The notes under the pieces were generated by a model, which ran no database searches, was not told the DNA's origin, and was given only the letters and a program-made list of their open reading frames with translations. Below, piece by piece: positions 9,645 through 20,647 of a stretch of DNA of 64,000 nucleotides. Both the position numbers and the translations under genes were made by a program. The stretch spans positions 5,097,001 through 5,161,000 of the forward strand of contig NZ_CP120683.1 of the NCBI RefSeq assembly GCF_030506325.1, in the 5' to 3' direction. Position 1 is the stretch's first letter, and the number at the start of each line of letters is the position of its first letter. This DNA is from Tunicatimonas pelagia. GTDB taxonomy: Bacteria; Bacteroidota; Bacteroidia; Cytophagales; Cyclobacteriaceae.

Positions 9645-9998
9645 CTAATATTCCTTTTGTCTTACACCGTTTGAGTCTAGAACAGTAAGGGTTTGGGCAA
9701 AATTTAGTTCAGTATTATTAACGATATTCTCTACGATATGAGCAGTTTCGGTAGGAGTAGTAGGTTGTTTCCGAATGTAAATTACGCCCACAGCAGGGTG
9801 ATAGCCGTGCTTAAATATTAATTCTCCGTAGTCACTATCGTGGGTAACAATAGTTCGGTTCTCCTCAATGGCAATATCCATTACTTCTTCATCGGAAATG
9901 CCAAGGTGGTCTATTCCAATTGACTTGATATCAAATCCTTGTGATCGAAGATAGATTACACTGGCTAGCGGGATATTTTCGTTGGCTAAAAGTTCCAA
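9645..9998 (-). CDS. DUF5615 PIN-like protein (probable toxin of a toxin-antitoxin pair)
   Basis: 117 residues with the Mut7-C/PIN-like pattern of DUF5615: LLANENIPLA at the N-terminus, IGISDEEVM-like middle (HLGISDEEVMDIA), then TIVTHDSDYGEL. PIN-like proteins are metal-dependent RNases. Odd point: the first acidic residue of the usual DENLP motif is Asn here (NENIP), so activity may be reduced. The start codon appears to be TTG at 9998, 8 bases after the stop of the DUF433 gene, so the two are translated together. The pairing with DUF433 is the classic arrangement of this VapBC-like module. Confidence 0.85.
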   Translation of the reverse strand: MELLANENIPLASVIYLRSQGFDIKSIGIDHLGISDEEVMDIAIEENRTIVTHDSDYGELIFKHGYHPAVGVIYIRKQPTTPTETAHIVENIVNNTELNFAQTLTVLDSNGVRQKEY

Positions 9999-12295: not shown

Positions 12296-12543
12296 TGATC
12301 TATTGTTTTCTTGTTTGGTAGAGATTCAAGTTCAGATTAATAAATCTATCAATTTAGCTGAAACTTCGGTACTCAAACTCGTTAACTCTACATTAATAAT
12401 TAGCTGCAAAAGCAACATAGGGCAATGATGGTGCCCTCAACAGCTTTTCGCTAGCTTTTTCATAAAAAGATCAGTTCTCTGTAACCTTTTACCCCCCGAT
12501 ACCTACTAGGGTAATAAACGCACCTGGGATTTAAACTGAGCCA

Positions 12544-14586
12544 GTGAATTCATCATTAGAACGAGAGTACGTAGATCAGGCAACGCAAGGAGACAAGCGG
12601 GCATTTAATCAGCTAGCCGAACTTTACTATAACGACTGCTTTCAGAAAGCAAAAGCAATTTTAAAGGATGAAGTGCTATCGCAAGATGTAGTTCAAATCT
12701 CACTATTGCAGGCGTACCGTAGTCTGCATAAACTTCATTCTCCTGCCCGATTCAAATATTGGCTGCTCGGAATTGTCCGCAACATAAGCCTCAATTACAC
12801 GAAGGAAAAAAGTCGGTTATTCTTCTCATTAGACAGTGTTCTAACAACATCTCAGTATTCAGAAGAAAGGCCCCATCAGATCAGCGAGCTAATACGCTCT
12901 TCGGTACAATCGTTAGATGAGCATTATCGGGCTGTGATTCTGGCCTACTACTACGATGGTTTGAGCCAAGCGGAGATTGCATTACAACAAAAGCTTACTC
13001 TTTCTACCGTAAAGGTTAGACTGCACCGGGGGCGACAGTTACTTAAGCAAAAGCTCGCCACCCAAAAGGATTTATTCTACTATTATCAACAATCAATAAA
13101 GCCAGCAGCTATGAAAAAAATGACTATTGCTGACCTTTACGTGAAAAAAAGCGGGGGGGCGACCCTATTGCTTCAGACGGAAGAAGGAGAATACTTTTTG
13201 CCCATCGTTATCGGAATTTTTGAGGCAGATGCCATATTTCTCGGACTAGAAGGTTTTAAGCAGGGTCGTCCATTCACGCATGATTTAACGGCTTCTATTA
13301 TTGAGGCTGCTCAAGTTACACTAGTGAATGTTTGTATTCATCAAATTACCAATGGCGTATTTATTGCTGATCTTACGGTGAAGCATGGAAAAGAAGAGCT
13401 AAAAATAGATGCTCGTCCGAGCGATGCCATTGCTTTGGCCGTGCGATTCAACGCGCCCGTACTCGTTACAGATGAAGTATTGGAGAAGGCGGGCGTTCCG
13501 GTTCCAGAAATGTATCGGCAAACCGTTCCGCAGGCAAAAGGGCTTAATCAAATTGCCCGCTACTTTGCCCAAGATAAAATAGGCCAAATTGTGCGTGAAT
13601 CTGTTCAGCAGAAGGAAAGTAAAGTGGAAGAAAAGCAGGCCGCCAAAGAGCTAGGTGAGCGGCAGAAATGGTTAGTGGATCTAGTGTTTGGCGATGGCGA
13701 TCTACCCAAAGCAGATTTAAGCTGGCAACCGCATCGGTACACTACCTGGAGCGATGCTTTGAGCAACCCGGATCAAGTGGATTGGTTAGACATAAAGAAT
13801 CAAGATCTCACTGACTTTTCCGAAAAGATTAAGTTTCTCCCGCAAATTGAAGTATTGGAATTGGCTGGACACGAACTAGCCGAGTTGCCCTCAGGAATTG
13901 AACAACTAGCGAAGCTTCGCCAATTAAATCTGGCTGATAATCAGCTTCGCAGCCTGCCCGATACTATGGAGCAACTGCCGCAGTTAAAGGGCTTGAACCT
14001 ACGAAATAATGCGTTCAAGGAGTTACCGGAAGTAGTTAGTCGGTTGCCCGCACTGCGGCAAATGGATTTATCTAAGAACCCTACTTTAGATATGTCGCAA
14101 GCCTTTAGTGTTTTAGGTCACGCCAAATTTTTGCATCACCTTGAACTCCGAGAAAGTAATCTGACTAATCTGCCGGAAGAAATTACTCGTTTGCGCGGTT
14201 TAGTAATTCTAGATTTGGGAAATGACCCAGCACTAAACCTATCACAAGCGTTTCCGGTTTTGAGTCGGCTGCCTTCGCTAAACATGTTAGAAATGAAAGC
14301 ATTCCAGCTAAATGCTCTGCCGGAAGAGGTTACCTTGCTGCAACAGCTTACCGGGCTTAGCTTAAATGATAATCCGCAGCTAGACCTGGAGCTTCTCTGC
14401 CATCAACTTAGCCAGCTTAAAAATTTAAGAATACTAGCGTTGATGTGCTGTAATTTGTCCGCACTTCCTTCAGAAATACAGCTACTCAATAAACTGGAAG
14501 TGCTTGAGCTAGGTAATAATACTATTCCAAAAGAAGAACAGCAGCGAATCAAGGAACTACTGCCCAATACCACCGTTATTTTCTAG
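12544..14586 (+). CDS. fusion: ECF sigma factor - bifunctional nuclease (DUF151) - leucine-rich repeats
   Basis: One uninterrupted 680-codon frame from GTG 12544 (an in-frame stop lies 12 bases upstream). Residues ~5-95 are sigma-70 region 2 (GDKRAFNQLAELYYND, LSQDVVQISLLQAYRSL, FKYWLLGIVRN). Residues ~120-175 are region 4 (LDEHYRAVILAYYYDGLSQA, TVKVRLHRGRQLL). Residues 190-320 are a bifunctional-nuclease domain (YFLPIVIGIFEADAI, RPFTHDL, DARPSDAIALAV). A charged linker (320-410) leads to about ten LRRs (415-680) of the LxxLPxxIxxLxxLxxLxLxxN type, several alternating with slightly longer units. There is no signal peptide, so it is cytoplasmic. No anti-sigma gene is adjacent. An internal ATG at 13111 could in principle start a separate nuclease-LRR product. 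Confidence 0.9.
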   Translation: MNSSLEREYVDQATQGDKRAFNQLAELYYNDCFQKAKAILKDEVLSQDVVQISLLQAYRSLHKLHSPARFKYWLLGIVRNISLNYTKEKSRLFFSLDSVLTTSQYSEERPHQISELIRSSVQSLDEHYRAVILAYYYDGLSQAEIALQQKLTLSTVKVRLHRGRQLLKQKLATQKDLFYYYQQSIKPAAMKKMTIADLYVKKSGGATLLLQTEEGEYFLPIVIGIFEADAIFLGLEGFKQGRPFTHDLTASIIEAAQVTLVNVCIHQITNGVFIADLTVKHGKEELKIDARPSDAIALAVRFNAPVLVTDEVLEKAGVPVPEMYRQTVPQAKGLNQIARYFAQDKIGQIVRESVQQKESKVEEKQAAKELGERQKWLVDLVFGDGDLPKADLSWQPHRYTTWSDALSNPDQVDWLDIKNQDLTDFSEKIKFLPQIEVLELAGHELAELPSGIEQLAKLRQLNLADNQLRSLPDTMEQLPQLKGLNLRNNAFKELPEVVSRLPALRQMDLSKNPTLDMSQAFSVLGHAKFLHHLELRESNLTNLPEEITRLRGLVILDLGNDPALNLSQAFPVLSRLPSLNMLEMKAFQLNALPEEVTLLQQLTGLSLNDNPQLDLELLCHQLSQLKNLRILALMCCNLSALPSEIQLLNKLEVLELGNNTIPKEEQQRIKELLPNTTVIF

Positions 14587-14979: not shown

Positions 14980-15561
14980 ATGAAAGGATTGAGAATAGAG
15001 ATAAAAGAAATTCCACTTCCCCAGAAGAGTTCAAAAATAGAAAACCTATTCGGAGGAGGACTATTGATTTTGATAGGTATCCTGTCACTTCCCCTGATTT
15101 TAATTTTTTGGATTGGTGCAATGATTATCAATCTCTTACCCTCAAGAAAAGCAGTTACTATTGCCAATGAATGGCAAACGATCGTTTCTGATAATCATTG
15201 GATATTAAAATTCAGATGGATTAACGCGGATGATCTAACAGATTATTTACACGGCTACTTCGATATTCAACCCTTGATTGAATATAGGTCTGATCCTGAA
15301 ATAGATTTCTTCCAAGGTTACTTTACGGATTTCAGATTAGAAAGAACCGACGGTATCTTCGTTCAAAAAGTCAACCATGATCCAATCAAGGAAGAAGTAA
15401 CCTCATTGCCTCTTTGCTTTTTCAACTATCAGACAAAAGAAGTTGAAGAAATCAAGGATTTAAAAGATTATGAACTTGATACCAAAGGAAATCCAGATGA
15501 CTTCATGATTTCAGCCATTGGAGACGGACACGAACTACAGATTCGATTGAAAAGAAAGTGA
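14980..15561 (+). CDS. hypothetical membrane-anchored protein (193 aa)
   Basis: Not recognised. A hydrophobic stretch at about 27-52 (GGGLLILIGILSLPLILIFW and on) should form one or two membrane segments; the rest (55-193) is a soluble acidic beta-rich domain. Base composition is more AT-rich than the neighbouring sigma-fusion gene. It is followed by an imperfect palindrome (15576-15690) of the kind that separates cassette-like orphan genes, and no partner is obvious. Another ATG just upstream (14974) is out of frame. Confidence 0.6.
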   Translation: MKGLRIEIKEIPLPQKSSKIENLFGGGLLILIGILSLPLILIFWIGAMIINLLPSRKAVTIANEWQTIVSDNHWILKFRWINADDLTDYLHGYFDIQPLIEYRSDPEIDFFQGYFTDFRLERTDGIFVQKVNHDPIKEEVTSLPLCFFNYQTKEVEEIKDLKDYELDTKGNPDDFMISAIGDGHELQIRLKRK

Positions 15562-15719: not shown

Positions 15720-16436
15720 GTGAAATATTATTTGGTAATTTTTGGACTAATAATCTCTGGTTGTAAACATTCAGAAAATGGAACCTTAATCGAGGTTAAT
15801 ACAATTGAAGCTGAGAATTTAGCAAGCGATATTCAGAGAGGTTTGGAAGAGGTAGATTTTTTGATCAAATTCTATAATAATCCTTCACCCTATGTAGATC
15901 TTGGTCAAAAATTAAGAGCAGCGTTAGACTATATTGACTCAAGTAGTCCTAGTTCATTTGATTACGATATGGTAATGAAAACAATGAAGAGGACATCTAA
16001 CAAACTTGAGGAACAAGCAGAGTTGATTCAAAAGCTTAGCGAAGCCGAAAGCAGTGCATTAGTGGAATCATCGCTAACCTTAGAATTCAATAAACTGAAA
16101 CAGCGATTAGTGGAAGAATCACTACTTGAATTTGAATTACTAACTTTTAGGTTAGATGAACCGATGATTATGATTGAAACAGATAAAGACGCTTATGACA
16201 TAGGCGAAGTAATTACTGGGGAAGTAAGAATGGTATTTGGAAGCAGTAATGTGGGAAGGTCAATCGACTATATCAAAGTTAATGGGGAATTTATCAAGAT
16301 AAACAAAGAAGGCATAGGTCAAATTCAAACCCAAGTTACCAGGAGTAATCTCAATCTGGCTGTAGAGATGAAATTGAAGGACCCGATTGAAGGAAAATTC
16401 GTCTTTGAGAAGAATAAAAATGTTATAATGAAGTGA
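15720..16436 (+). CDS. hypothetical lipoprotein, weakly GldM-like
   Basis: 238 residues from GTG 15720. The N-terminus is a good lipoprotein signal, LVIFGLIISGC, with Cys at 15. A helical region follows (25-145: IEAENLASDIQRGLEEVDF, KLEEQAELIQKLSEAES), then a small beta domain (150-238: ETDKDAYDIGEVITGEVRMV, IDYIKVNGEFIKINKEGIG). The helical part plus a beta domain with a Tyr-x-Gly-Glu motif recalls the periplasmic part of the gliding protein GldM, but it is much shorter and lacks GldM's membrane helix; this is inference. It sits between two palindromic spacers as a possible single-gene cassette. Confidence 0.6.
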   Translation: MKYYLVIFGLIISGCKHSENGTLIEVNTIEAENLASDIQRGLEEVDFLIKFYNNPSPYVDLGQKLRAALDYIDSSSPSSFDYDMVMKTMKRTSNKLEEQAELIQKLSEAESSALVESSLTLEFNKLKQRLVEESLLEFELLTFRLDEPMIMIETDKDAYDIGEVITGEVRMVFGSSNVGRSIDYIKVNGEFIKINKEGIGQIQTQVTRSNLNLAVEMKLKDPIEGKFVFEKNKNVIMK

Positions 16437-16578: not shown

Positions 16579-17460
16579 ATGGAAGAGCGAAGAGAGAAAT
16601 ATATCAACCCTTTCACTGATTACGGCTTCAAGCGACTGTTTGGCGAAGAGCCAAACAAAGATTTATTACTGGACTTTCTCAATGAACTGCTCAAGCACGA
16701 GCAAGGTAGAATCACCGCACTGACCTACCTGAAGTCTGACAAACTAGGTACTAGCGAAGAAGACCGGAAGGCGGTTTTTGATCTGTATTGTCAGAACGAA
16801 CGAGGTGAGAAATTCATTGTAGAATTACAGAAGACCAAACAGAAATTCTTCAAGGATAGGACTATATATTATTCAACGTTTCCGATCCGAGAACAGGCTC
16901 AGCGAGGCTCGGACTGGACATTTGAATTGAAAGCAGTATATACGGTTGCTATCCTAGATTTCGTGTTTGATGCTGATAAGGATGAACCGAATAAGTTCAG
17001 ATATGATGTGAAACTAACGGACATTGATACTTGCAAGATATTCTACGATAAACTGACCTTCATTTACTTAGAAATGCCTAAGTTCAATAAATCTGTAGAA
17101 CTACTGGAATCACGATTTGACAAATGGATGTACGTTATTCGTAACCTGAACGAATTAGACAGAATACCGAACGAATTACGTGAGGGGGTTTTTGAGCGCT
17201 TGTTTGAAGTGGCTGAGATAGCCAAGTTCAGCAAAGAGGAAGCGAAGGCTTATGAAGATAGTTTGAAGTCGTATAGAGATTTGAAAAACTCGCTAGATAC
17301 TGCGTTTGAGGAAGGGATAGAAAAGGGAATAGAGAAAGAGAGAAAGGTGGTGGTTCGGAATTCATTAAATGCAGGATTGTCACTTGAAATGATAGCTAGC
17401 ATTACTAGATTGAGCCAAGAGGAAATTAGGAGGATAAAAAACGAGGGTAACAACAGCTAA
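16579..17460 (+). CDS. Rpn family PD-(D/E)XK nuclease / putative transposase
   Basis: 293 residues. It opens with INPFTDYGFKRLFGEEPNKD, the family signature, then the PD-(D/E)XK core: D in AVFDLYC and ExQ in FIVELQK, followed by FKDRTIYYSTFPIREQ. Such proteins (PDDEXK_2, Rpn) are DNA endonucleases that promote RecA-independent recombination. The C-terminus is helical with a short EEGIEKGIEKER stretch and ends in an HTH-like tail (GLSLEMIASITRLSQEEI). A longer paralogue with an expanded repeat is at 38600-39553. It lies beside orphan genes and an IS nest. Confidence 0.9.
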   Translation: MEERREKYINPFTDYGFKRLFGEEPNKDLLLDFLNELLKHEQGRITALTYLKSDKLGTSEEDRKAVFDLYCQNERGEKFIVELQKTKQKFFKDRTIYYSTFPIREQAQRGSDWTFELKAVYTVAILDFVFDADKDEPNKFRYDVKLTDIDTCKIFYDKLTFIYLEMPKFNKSVELLESRFDKWMYVIRNLNELDRIPNELREGVFERLFEVAEIAKFSKEEAKAYEDSLKSYRDLKNSLDTAFEEGIEKGIEKERKVVVRNSLNAGLSLEMIASITRLSQEEIRRIKNEGNNS

Positions 17461-17530
17461 ATTTCATGTCCGCCCTGTGAGACAGCCACACCATTTAGCT
17501 AAACCGTGAGCAGGCATAGAGTAAATGAAA

Positions 17531-17538
17531 GAAAAATA
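17531..17538. repeat. 8-bp target duplication, left copy (ISL3-type insertion)
   Basis: GAAAAATA directly before the left end; the identical octamer lies at 20988-20995 directly after the right end. Confidence 0.9.
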
Positions 17539-17566
17539 GGTTCTAAATGATTTTATGTGGATGGTT

Positions 17567-17574
17567 TATCTTTG
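17567..17574 (+). promoter_or_regulatory. -7 promoter box of the ISL3-type transposase
   Basis: TATCTTTG, exact, just inside the left inverted repeat and 13 bases before ATG 17588. This argues for 17588 as the transposase start rather than the ATG at 17555, which lies within the terminal repeat. Confidence 0.6.
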
Positions 17575-17587
17575 CGGAAAAAGCCGT

Positions 17588-18394
17588 ATGCAACTTAGCG
17601 AGATATTAGAAGAACTACTGCCTTTGGCTGATCCTCTACAGGTTCAACGAGTAGAAAAAGACGAAACATTGCAAGAGGTGCATATCCATCTGGAAGTAGA
17701 TGCTACGCACCAGCCACCCACTGGTCAAGTAGTGCATCAGTATTATGATCGGAAATGGGAACACCTGCCCTTGTTTCAGTACCGTTGCTTCATTCACTGC
17801 CGCCTGCCGGTCTATCAAGATACGCAAACCGGCAAAACTCGTGCTTTGCAGGTAAGTTTCAGTCGGGAGCAGTCCCGCTTTACGCTACTCTACGAACGCT
17901 ATGTGATGGATTTGTTGCAGCTATATCACAATGTTACTAAAGTAGCCGAGCAGTTAGGGGTATATCCGCAACGCATTGCCAATATCTATCATCACTCTAC
18001 CGAAGCTGCTTACCAATCTCATAGCGTGTCAGTCTGCCCGCAGGTAGGTATTGACGAAACATCTACGCGCAAGGGCCATGATTATATCACTGCGTTTGTA
18101 GACTTGGATACTCATCAGATTTTAGCCCTAGAAGATGGTAAAGGGGCTGATACCATTGAGCGGTTCTTCCAAAATCATCCCAACCCGGAGGTAGTACAAA
18201 ACATCTCCTCTGACATGTCCCCAGCCTTTGCTAAGGGGGTGCAGAGCTACTTCCCCTGGGCTAAGGTGACCTACGACAAATGGCATGTGTTCAAACTACT
18301 AAGCAAGCACTTGGACAAACTTGCCGACCGACACCCTGCCAAATGTGCTTACGTGATGCTACTGCAAGGTATCCCTACGGTGAAACGGACTTGA
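17588..18394 (+). pseudogene. ISL3-type transposase, 5' fragment (disrupted)
   Basis: Residues 1-260 are genuine transposase; the last eight codons before the stop at 18394 read into the inserted IS66. The fragment holds an N-terminal region (to ~90), a helix-turn-helix (about 120-140, NVTKVAEQLGVYPQRIANIY), and the first two catalytic Asp residues (VGIDETSTRKG and ISSDMSPAFAKG) followed by YDKWHVFKLL. The third acidic residue is on the 3' fragment at 20672-20973. Between WHVFKLL and the junction the protein is shorter than many ISL3 transposases. Confidence 0.9.
18361..18368. repeat. 8-bp target duplication, left copy (IS66 insertion)
   Basis: ACTGCAAG before the IS66 left end; the identical octamer is at 20664-20671 after the right end. 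Confidence 0.92.
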
Positions 18395-18414
18395 TAAACA
18401 GCCGAGTGCGCCAT

Positions 18415-18422
18415 TATCTTTG
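18415..18422 (+). promoter_or_regulatory. -7 promoter box of the IS66 operon
   Basis: TATCTTTG, exact, 13 bases before the tnpA start codon: the same box and spacing as in the ISL3-type element. Confidence 0.55.
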
Positions 18423-18435
18423 AAGAAAAAAGGTT

Positions 18436-18729
18436 ATGGCACATTTTCGTACTGAGCAAAAGATGTTTCCTGTAGTGGAAGCTTGGCAGAGCAGTGGACA
18501 AACGCAAAAAGCGTTCTGCGCTGCGCATAATATTTCTGTTTCGGTGTTGGCCTACTGGCTACGGCGTTACCGCGATCACCACGTTGATGAGAGCGATGAG
18601 TCCGTTGGTTTTGTTCCCGTCCGTATGGATGTATCCGGTCCGGCAGCCCTGGAAGTGAGTTTACCTTCGGGGGCGGTGTTGCGTTTTGCACAAGTAGTAC
18701 CGGTGGGGTATCTGAAAGCTTTGCTGTAG
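18436..18729 (+). CDS. tnpA: IS66 accessory protein TnpA
   Basis: 97 residues. The N-terminal half is a helix-turn-helix (VVEAWQSSGQTQKAFCAAHN, LAYWLRRYRD); the C-terminal half has the beta pattern of IS66 TnpA (VGFVPVRM, LEVSLPSGAVLRF). It is required with TnpB and TnpC for IS66 transposition. The stop codon abuts the ATG of tnpB without a gap, indicating translational coupling. Confidence 0.9.
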   Translation: MAHFRTEQKMFPVVEAWQSSGQTQKAFCAAHNISVSVLAYWLRRYRDHHVDESDESVGFVPVRMDVSGPAALEVSLPSGAVLRFAQVVPVGYLKALL

Positions 18730-19074
18730 ATGTTGATGAGCTTAGCCAAGCGAATATTCTTGTATTCGCACAGCGTGGACATGCGCAAAGGGTTTGATGG
18801 GCTATCGGGCATCGTATCTCAACAGATGGGTGCGGATGTACTGTCGGGGGATGCCTACGTGTTTGTGGGGCGCCGGAAAGACCGTTTAAAGTTACTGGTA
18901 TGGGAGTCTTCGGGCTTCGTATTATACTACAAACGCCTAGAGGCGGGTACGTTTCGTTTACCTAACGGTAAGCAGTCTGCCGTAGAGCTGTCTTCGGCTG
19001 AACTGTGGGCGTTATTGGAAGGGCTGGACGTAGAGGTGAAGCAGCGACGAAAACGCTACAAACTATCGGCCTGA
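18730..19074 (+). CDS. tnpB: IS66 accessory protein TnpB (Orf2-like)
   Basis: 114 residues covering the whole IS66 Orf2 family: VDMRKGFDGLSGIV, AYVFVGRRKDRLKLLVWE, GFVLYYKRLEAGTF. The frame is intact and of normal length. The exact biochemical role in transposition is not settled. It starts on the base after the tnpA stop. Confidence 0.93.
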   Translation: MLMSLAKRIFLYSHSVDMRKGFDGLSGIVSQQMGADVLSGDAYVFVGRRKDRLKLLVWESSGFVLYYKRLEAGTFRLPNGKQSAVELSSAELWALLEGLDVEVKQRRKRYKLSA

Positions 19075-19113
19075 GTGTTTGCATTTACCATGCACCTACT
19101 TATGTTTGCTGCT

Positions 19114-20647
19114 ATGGATTATGCCGCCCTACAAACTGAGAATCAAGCTTTGCGTGAACAGAACAAACTGTTGCGACAAGAACTGGCTGAACTGAAGCGG
19201 CTGGTCTATGGCCTAGGCGGCCCCGCAGCAAAAGGGAACGTTTCGTAGGAACCGCTACGCCGGGGCAACTTAGCTTGCTCTCTAATGAAGAGGTCGTAGC
19301 GAAGGACGGTGTTGAAAAGCAAACGTATCAACGAACGATAGCCAAACCTGCCGCATCCATTGCCCCTTCACGCAAACTGCTACCGGCTCACTTGCCGCGT
19401 ATAGAGGTAGTGCTGGAACCCGAAGAGGATACCTCAGCGATGAAGAAGATTGGTGAGCAGGTGAGCGAAGAACTGGATTATGAACCGGCTAAGTTGTTTG
19501 TGCGCCGTTACGTCCGACCGCGCTACGTGAGTGCCGAAGAAGACTTTTATGTAGCTGCTTTGCCCAACCGGCCCATTGATAATCATTCCATGACGGAGGC
19601 ATCCCTGGAGCCGGACTACTGGCTCAGATTCTCATGGATAAGTTCTGCGATCATTTGCCCGTCTACCGGCAAGTACAGTGCTACCAACGATTGGGTATCA
19701 GCCTCTCAGAAAGCACATTGGGCGGTTGGTTGAGTAGCGCTTGTGAACTAATCAACCCCCTCTACGCGGCTTTGCGCAAATGTGTACTCGGTCAGGCATA
19801 CTTGCAAGCTGATGAAAGTCCAATACCGGTGCTGGATAAAAAGAAAAAAGGCAAGACTCACCGAGGCTATCAGTGGCCGGCACCCCGGTGGGCCTACCAT
19901 AGTCCGGAGATTAGACTGGTGTTCTTCGACTACCAGTCCGGACGAGGCAGAGAGGGACCCAAAGAATGTCTGAAAGCCTTTTCCGGTTACTTACAAGCCG
20001 ATGGCTACGAAGCCTACGAATGGCTCAACGCCCAGCGCAATGACATTACCCTACTGCATTGTATGGCGCACGCCCGCCGTTACTTTGAAAAAGCCCTGGA
20101 CAGCGATGCCGAACGGGCCACCTATGCCCTGTCCGAAATACAGAAGCTCTATGCAGTGGAACGTCACGGCCGACAAGAGGATCTCTCAGATGAACAACGC
20201 TACGTGTTGCGGCAAGAACAGGCGGTGCCCATTCTGGAAGAGCTACATGCTTGGTTGCTCGAACAAGCGGCCAATGTATTGCCTAAAAGTCTGATCGGTA
20301 AAGCCGTTGCTTACTCACTGCGCCGTATCAAAACTTTATCGTTGTATACCACTGACGGGCGGCTGGAGATCGATAATAACCTGATTGAAAATACCATCCG
20401 ACCTATTGCCCTGGGCAGAAAAAACTACCTGTTCGCCGGGAGCCACGCGGCCGCCCAACGTATTGCTGTCTTCTACAGCCTGTTGGGCAGCTGTAAACTG
20501 CACGGCATTGAACCTTACAGCTATCTGAAAGACATCCTGGAACGACTACCCGATCATCCCATCAATGAAATAGAAGACTTGCTACCCCACCGATGGAAAC
20601 CCCGGCAAGCTGACCAAAAAACTGAGCCGATCACCGTCGCCGTCTAG
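19114..20647 (+). pseudogene. tnpC: IS66 transposase TnpC, broken by two short insertions
   Basis: Three frames together give a full TnpC. Frame 1 (from ATG 19114) has the N-terminal leucine-zipper region and ends at a TAG near 19236. Frame 2 (to 19733) has the zinc-ribbon/linker region. Frame 3 (to 20647) has the DDE core: LQADESPIPVLD, LQADGYEAYEW, NNLIENTIRPIALGRKNY. Continuity breaks after LVYG, where about 23 bases (19211-19233) replace what is usually a short RKS-like link. It breaks again at 19608-19618, an 11-base stretch whose removal restores ASLLAQILMDKF exactly. Both changes shift the frame by +2. Confidence 0.88.

Follow-up and report, generated by a model that had tools for sequence, protein, structure and literature searches.

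The locus examined here raises the question of what may be done by a single bacterial protein in which an ECF sigma factor is followed by a bifunctional nuclease (BFN, DUF151) domain and by leucine-rich repeats (LRRs). The gene lies in the window, which is the whole 64-kb stretch of DNA that was analysed, and a sequence-only reading of it had proposed a self-contained regulator. The reading preferred here, with moderate confidence, is that the protein is an ECF sigma factor whose C-terminal extension is regulatory and of a new kind, and that it would control itself and be gated by the BFN and LRR parts.

Organisation of the fusion gene

The frame of 680 codons was found to run unbroken from the GTG codon at 12544 to the stop codon at 14586 in the open-frame reading of the window, and it was found to contain the following parts.

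12544..14586, + strand: sigma-BFN-LRR fusion gene, 680 aa, GTG start, with a 684-aa orthologue in genome G155
12616..12816, + strand: sigma-70 region 2, residues 25-91 (Pfam PF04542 Sigma70_r2, 9.5e-8)
12886..13044, + strand: sigma-70 region 4, residues 115-167 (Pfam PF08281 Sigma70_r4_2, 5.3e-13)
13165..13503, + strand: bifunctional nuclease domain (BFN_dom), residues 208-320 (Pfam PF02577, 3.9e-37; similar to TM0160 by sequence and fold)
13504..13776, + strand: BFN-LRR linker, residues 321-411 (low pLDDT at 354-375 and 382-395)
13777..14565, + strand: eleven LRRs, residues 412-674 (PF13855, PF23598; pLDDT above 90)

All Pfam matches of the window protein were above their cut-offs, including PF02577 (126.9 bits against a cut-off of 27) and LRR_8 (1.2e-17), and the NCBIfam sigma70-ECF superfamily model was also found to match above its cut-off. 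The LRR units were delimited by eye and their contiguity was checked separately; the repeats reported earlier were thus recovered, with the count moving from about ten to 11 contiguous units. ECF sigma factors are described in the accessible part of PMC8103513 as containing regions 2 and 4 only, with a linker of fewer than 50 residues between them, and the window protein was found to contain these two regions only, with region 2 ending at residue 91 and region 4 beginning at residue 115. Behind the sigma part, the BFN domain and the LRRs were the sole Pfam domains. No SnoaL, TPR, WD40 or Cys-rich extension was found by Pfam or from the positions of Cys, which is present only at residues 32, 264, 619, 635 and 636.

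An AlphaFold2 model of the window protein, built from an alignment of 21 rows, was found to have a mean pLDDT of 84.9, its sigma, BFN and LRR parts being modelled confidently, whereas pLDDT was below 50 in the linkers at residues 93-106, 180-186, 354-375 and 382-395. The pTM was 0.52, so that the mutual arrangement of the three parts is not given by the model. In Foldseek, the BFN part was matched to TM0160 (1vjl_A, DUF151) with a TM score of 0.84 on the target, and the model was also matched to bacterial LRR proteins, including those of Leptospira.

Relatives of the fusion

A 684-aa three-part gene, also with a GTG start, was found in G155, an uncultured Flammeovirgaceae MAG of the same genus (CAKZYJ010000250.1, C250, a contig of 9,098 bases), and its protein was 57% identical to the window protein from end to end. 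In Rhodocytophaga aerolata KACC 12507 (G346, NZ_JAUKPO010000037.1), a 380-aa fusion of sigma and BFN parts without LRRs was found, which was 35% identical to the window protein and was already present in public genome data. The copy of another Rhodocytophaga genome (G298), also without LRRs, was found to be divided over two frames, one with region 2 and the other with region 4 and the BFN domain, with the split at a run of A (L052 2150-2300 / L110), and this frame break may be a homopolymer sequencing error or decay. The G298 genome is a single contig, and the break in its gene lies between regions 2 and 4.

The fusion is one real three-part gene, as had been proposed for its sigma, DUF151/BFN and LRR parts on the basis of the unbroken frame. 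Misassembly or chance joining was ruled out, since the whole gene is present on the independent contig of G155 and a two-part relative is present in another family. Of the many orthologues with all three parts that had been named as support, one was found, that of G155. Because the Rhodocytophaga fusions lack LRRs, the repeats are either a gain in, or a loss outside, the genus of the window organism, and the proposal that they act as a general sensor of such proteins is not supported.

Candidate promoter upstream

A comparison of the sequences upstream of the two orthologues was found to contain a conserved block, and the same block was present before the Rhodocytophaga genes.

12480..12507, + strand: candidate ECF promoter TGTAACC-N16-CTACT, located 36 nt upstream of the start codon, with block and spacing common to all four fusions

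Each of the four fusion genes was found to be preceded by TGTAACC, exactly 16 nt and C[CT]ACT, with the block ending 36, 35, 17 and 19 nt upstream of the start codon. TGTAACC was the longest word common to the four upstream stretches of 120 nt, and a shared 7-mer was found in 3 of 2000 dinucleotide-shuffle sets; in the 28-nt block 13 columns were invariant, and no more than 11 were so in any of 400 shuffles. The four genes form two related pairs and are therefore not four independent cases. The sister sigma gene without a BFN domain, which was unused in motif discovery, was found to contain TGTAACC-N15-CCACT 122 nt before its listed start. TGTAACC was absent within 120 nt of the six other ECF genes checked among the 32 sigma matches of the window genome. 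In another ECF group (L132, L135, L136), TTGTAACC was found, followed by a different downstream half, GTCTAA. In these Rhodocytophaga-family ECF genes, GGTTACAACTTT is present before TTGTAACC, so that an inverted pair lies around the candidate promoter.

The accessible part of PMC8103513 reports AAC in the −35 box and positive autoregulation as hallmarks of ECF sigma factors, followed by CGT in the −10 box, which is given there only as an early hallmark and not as part of the present definition. The AAC was found within TGTAACC before all four fusion genes, where it would be the target of the sigma part, whereas the CGT was missing from the candidate promoter, its place being taken by C[CT]ACT in all four. 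Because the reported −35 core is present in the motif before every fusion gene, the sigma part is probably functional and probably directs transcription of its own gene. A scan for promoters and terminators of the E. coli type, which covers other promoter types poorly, found fewer sites than in shuffled sequences.

Search for a wider regulon

The number of exact matches to the motif was one in the window genome, two in G155, six in G346 and three in G298, which gives 12 against 14 for the reversed control (6 against 4 in G346). The one match of the window genome lies before the fusion gene. Four of the 12 matches are the fusion promoters, of which three lie outside any frame of at least 70 aa and the fourth, in G155, overlaps an antisense frame of 119 aa; the other eight all fall within frames of this size, including one in G346 that is located 122 nt before another frame. 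A slightly longer motif, with up to one mismatch allowed, was matched 19 times in six genomes against 44 for the reversed control in all (G125, 2 against 1); this included one further exact match in G298 and no exact match in the two genus mates without the fusion. With up to three mismatches, a longer motif was matched 13 times in the window genome against 32 times for the reversed control.

Since the exact matches do not exceed the reversed control and the sites away from the fusion genes lie inside frames, no wider regulon was obtained with the strict motif; the looser motif could not be told from chance here, and the strict one may miss real targets. At 26028-26055 of contig C502 in G155 (L175), an exact TGTAACC-N16-CTACT was found within an 86-aa frame, maybe no gene, 108 nt before a 273-aa frame. 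This site is the one further candidate target in the genome that contains the three-part orthologue.

Putative catalytic residues of the BFN domain

For TM0160, the structure is reported to suggest a putative catalytic triad in a homodimer, with Asp115 and His58 contributed by one subunit and Thr57 by a second (accessible part of PMC7249048, on plant BBD proteins). Alignment and conservation placed the counterparts in the window protein as follows, the offset of 12 tag residues in the TM0160 chain being an assumption of the numbering.

13276..13281, + strand: T245 and H246, counterparts of Thr57 and His58 of TM0160 (alignment; conservation)
13423..13425, + strand: D294, counterpart of Asp115 of TM0160 (alignment; conservation)

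The triad was found to be T/H/D in the window protein, S/H/D in G155, V/F/D in R. aerolata and T/F/D in G298, against an unbroken Thr-His-Asp in all 91 stand-alone BFN proteins compared, which came from fetched loci and are not a random sample. As the putative catalytic His is replaced by Phe in both Rhodocytophaga fusions, catalysis may occur in the LRR-bearing form but is not a common property of the fusions; the property held in common is more likely the pocket or the dimer of the fold. For this reason the BFN domain is read as an on-board regulator.

These residues also bear on a one-gene switch, in which the sigma part would amplify itself through its own promoter as the main or only target, with the attached BFN domain cleaving DNA or RNA as output and the LRRs picking the target or partner. 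The intact T245, H246 and D294 and the single exact motif match of the window genome agree with such a switch, but the change from His to Phe where stand-alone proteins keep all three residues, together with targets that the strict motif may overlook, such as the site before the 273-aa frame of G155, makes it unlikely. The coupling of transcription start to nucleic acid cleavage that had been proposed for the window protein is not supported, given the same substitution.

A possible internal start

13111..13119, + strand: Met190-Lys-Lys, possible internal start where a BFN gene formerly began (MKK and ATGAAAAAA identical in all four fusions)

The Met190-Lys-Lys residues were found to be invariant and ATGAAAAAA identical in the four fusions at the position where stand-alone BFN proteins begin, and the join has in this way preserved the start of a former BFN gene. 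Two products could then be made, the full-length protein and a BFN-LRR protein starting at Met190, the latter acting apart from or against the sigma form. This is improbable: the identity may reflect ancestry only, and no promoter-like site was found just before 13111 by the scan of E. coli type with its poor coverage of other promoters. Sole use of the start at 13111, which had been named as a challenge to the whole-gene reading, is unlikely given the conserved sigma part and the upstream motif, while a shorter product from Met190 may still be formed beside the long one.

Selection, origin and rarity

Between the window gene and that of G155, the four modules were found to be 55-68% identical, with synonymous change saturated or nearly so. 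The pN/pS values were 0.21/0.68 in region 2, 0.26/0.79 in region 4, 0.26/0.79 in the BFN domain and 0.27/0.81 in the LRRs, whereas the linkers were looser (pN 0.31 to 0.45), with 49% identity to G155 in residues 336-405 of the BFN-LRR linker. This pattern is read as purifying selection on every module. The restrained amino-acid change against saturated synonymous change, together with the presence of the conserved ECF-type motif upstream, favours the earlier view of a functional sigma part.

In a tree of 24 sigma proteins, from which both pieces of the broken G298 gene are omitted, the three intact fusions were found to form one clade (98/95), and its sister (99/96) is a sigma factor of a Bacteroidetes MAG that has no BFN domain. 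When 95 BFN domains were placed in a tree, all four fused domains lay on the same side of one branch (SH-aLRT 89); because this tree contains long branches and was made by a quick method, the claim of a single origin rests on the sigma tree.

Matches spanning the sigma and BFN parts were found in two of 390 genomes of the family, at least three of 390 of the order (the window genome, G346 and the broken G298), one of 395 of the class and at least one of 395 of the phylum, all counts including the window genome and referring to queries that were sigma-BFN alignments of two or three rows, to overlapping draws of genomes and to at most five candidates scored per genome. The three-part gene was present in two of the four genomes of the window genus examined, and the sigma-BFN fusion in two of eight genomes of the family of G346. 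The three-row alignment was found to match 13 loci in the genome contig collection, of which two were fusions (G155 and R. aerolata) and 11 contained the sigma part only; a single-protein query against the same collection gave 36 pattern-matched stretches, none of them confirmed as a relative, and none of 297 matching plasmid records covered 80% of the sigma-BFN query. The window genome (7.29 Mb) was found to contain three BFN genes, namely the fusion and two open frames of 200 and 216 codons. In the search of the order, a BFN match in G368 (C171 3788-4516) was counted as a stand-alone BFN: it covers model positions 98-339 but crosses five stops and has a frame of 209 codons, possibly as a remnant or a chance extension.

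That the gene is a rare, lineage-specific fusion without a special mechanism and heading for loss would agree with its rarity in the family and class, its absence from two of the four genus genomes and the G298 copy broken at a run of A, but is highly unlikely, given the module identity kept despite saturated or nearly saturated synonymous change, the upstream motif retained across two families and a G298 break that falls in a homopolymer and may result from a sequencing error.

Neighbourhood

No anti-sigma family was found by Pfam among the nine neighbouring frames, of which two match no family and could contain an unrecognised partner. The flanking frames differ between the fusion loci, and by reading no neighbour gene was common to them. 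With no anti-sigma family nearby and no shared neighbours, a C-terminal regulator is plausible, and the suggestion that the C-terminal part replaces an adjacent anti-sigma factor gains from this. No family was matched by PADLOC at E 0.001 for the fusion protein and three neighbours, which leaves the proposed role in defence without backing.

The fusion gene is closely followed by two frames (14980-15561 and 15720-16436, + strand; 193 and 238 aa) for which no Pfam match was found. The stretch 16579-20647 of the window was found to contain mobile genes, namely a PDDEXK_2 transposase-type protein, a 279-aa ISL3-type piece (partial profile match) and IS66-type frames (the last by reading only), and a DUF5615 protein of 117 aa (PF18480) is encoded at 9645-9998 (− strand).

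Comparison with known systems

Extensions that replace an anti-sigma factor are described in the accessible part of PMC8999054 as SnoaL in ECF41, TPR in ECF42, WD40 in ECF57 and a Cys-rich extension in CorE. The groups with extensions (ECF41, ECF42, ECF56, ECF57 and ECF238), as described in that part, resemble the fusion in that regions 2 and 4 are the only sigma regions, a C-terminal extension follows them and an anti-sigma family is missing from the neighbourhood; their TPR and WD40 tails serve protein contacts, and the LRRs of the fusion might do likewise. The fusion is set apart from them by description, as a BFN domain or LRRs are mentioned there for none of the five groups (the words 'nuclease' and 'leucine-rich' are absent). 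TM0160 (1vjl) of Thermotoga maritima, a stand-alone BFN/DUF151 protein, has the same fold and the same putative Thr-His-Asp as the window protein. Unlike such stand-alone proteins, the window BFN domain sits behind a sigma factor, and the fused BFN domains lie on their own, long-branched side of the tree. The best PDB matches of the window LRRs by sequence and fold were the Leptospira LRR proteins (4u06, 4u08, 4u09, 7yjw) and SHOC2, which contain similar repeats and, unlike the window protein, no sigma or BFN part as judged by their titles.

Among the matches listed in open-licence full-text literature, no sigma-BFN or sigma-LRR fusion was found to be described, though one may exist in print. 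An ECF sigma factor with a C-terminal extension is of a known kind, and the BFN/LRR extension is new as far as seen.

Proposed mechanism

As the few relatives share both the fusion and the same upstream sequence, the gene is probably a real, self-controlled regulator of rare build. The sigma part would bind RNA polymerase and would recognise TGTAACC-N16-C[CT]ACT, chiefly before its own gene, which would give positive feedback. No separate anti-sigma factor would be needed, the BFN domain, which in TM0160 is a homodimer, keeping the sigma part off or on. Its state would change when a ligand or nucleic acid is bound, and in the genus of the window organism the LRRs would add a protein-binding input, so that release of the gating would start the feedback. 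By analogy with the tails of other ECF groups, the BFN domain, together with the LRRs in that genus, may gate sigma activity. The regulator reading is favoured by the intact sigma regions, pN well under pS in each module, the single clade (98/95) and the shared motif, and it is weakened by the absent CGT in the −10 box, the lack of a regulon by motif, the pTM and the LRRs not being present in all fusions.

Meaning of the fusion

How ECF sigma factors with built-in regulators work is poorly understood, and in this protein the place of the regulator is taken by an enzyme-type domain whose role in bacteria is largely obscure. With a likely target promoter now named, the activity of the sigma part, the effect of the BFN and LRR parts and the ligand of the BFN domain are open to simple reporter assays. 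If the one-gene switch were true, a single molecule would both start transcription and cleave nucleic acid. The fusion could help to reveal what the BFN/DUF151 domains of bacteria sense or cut.
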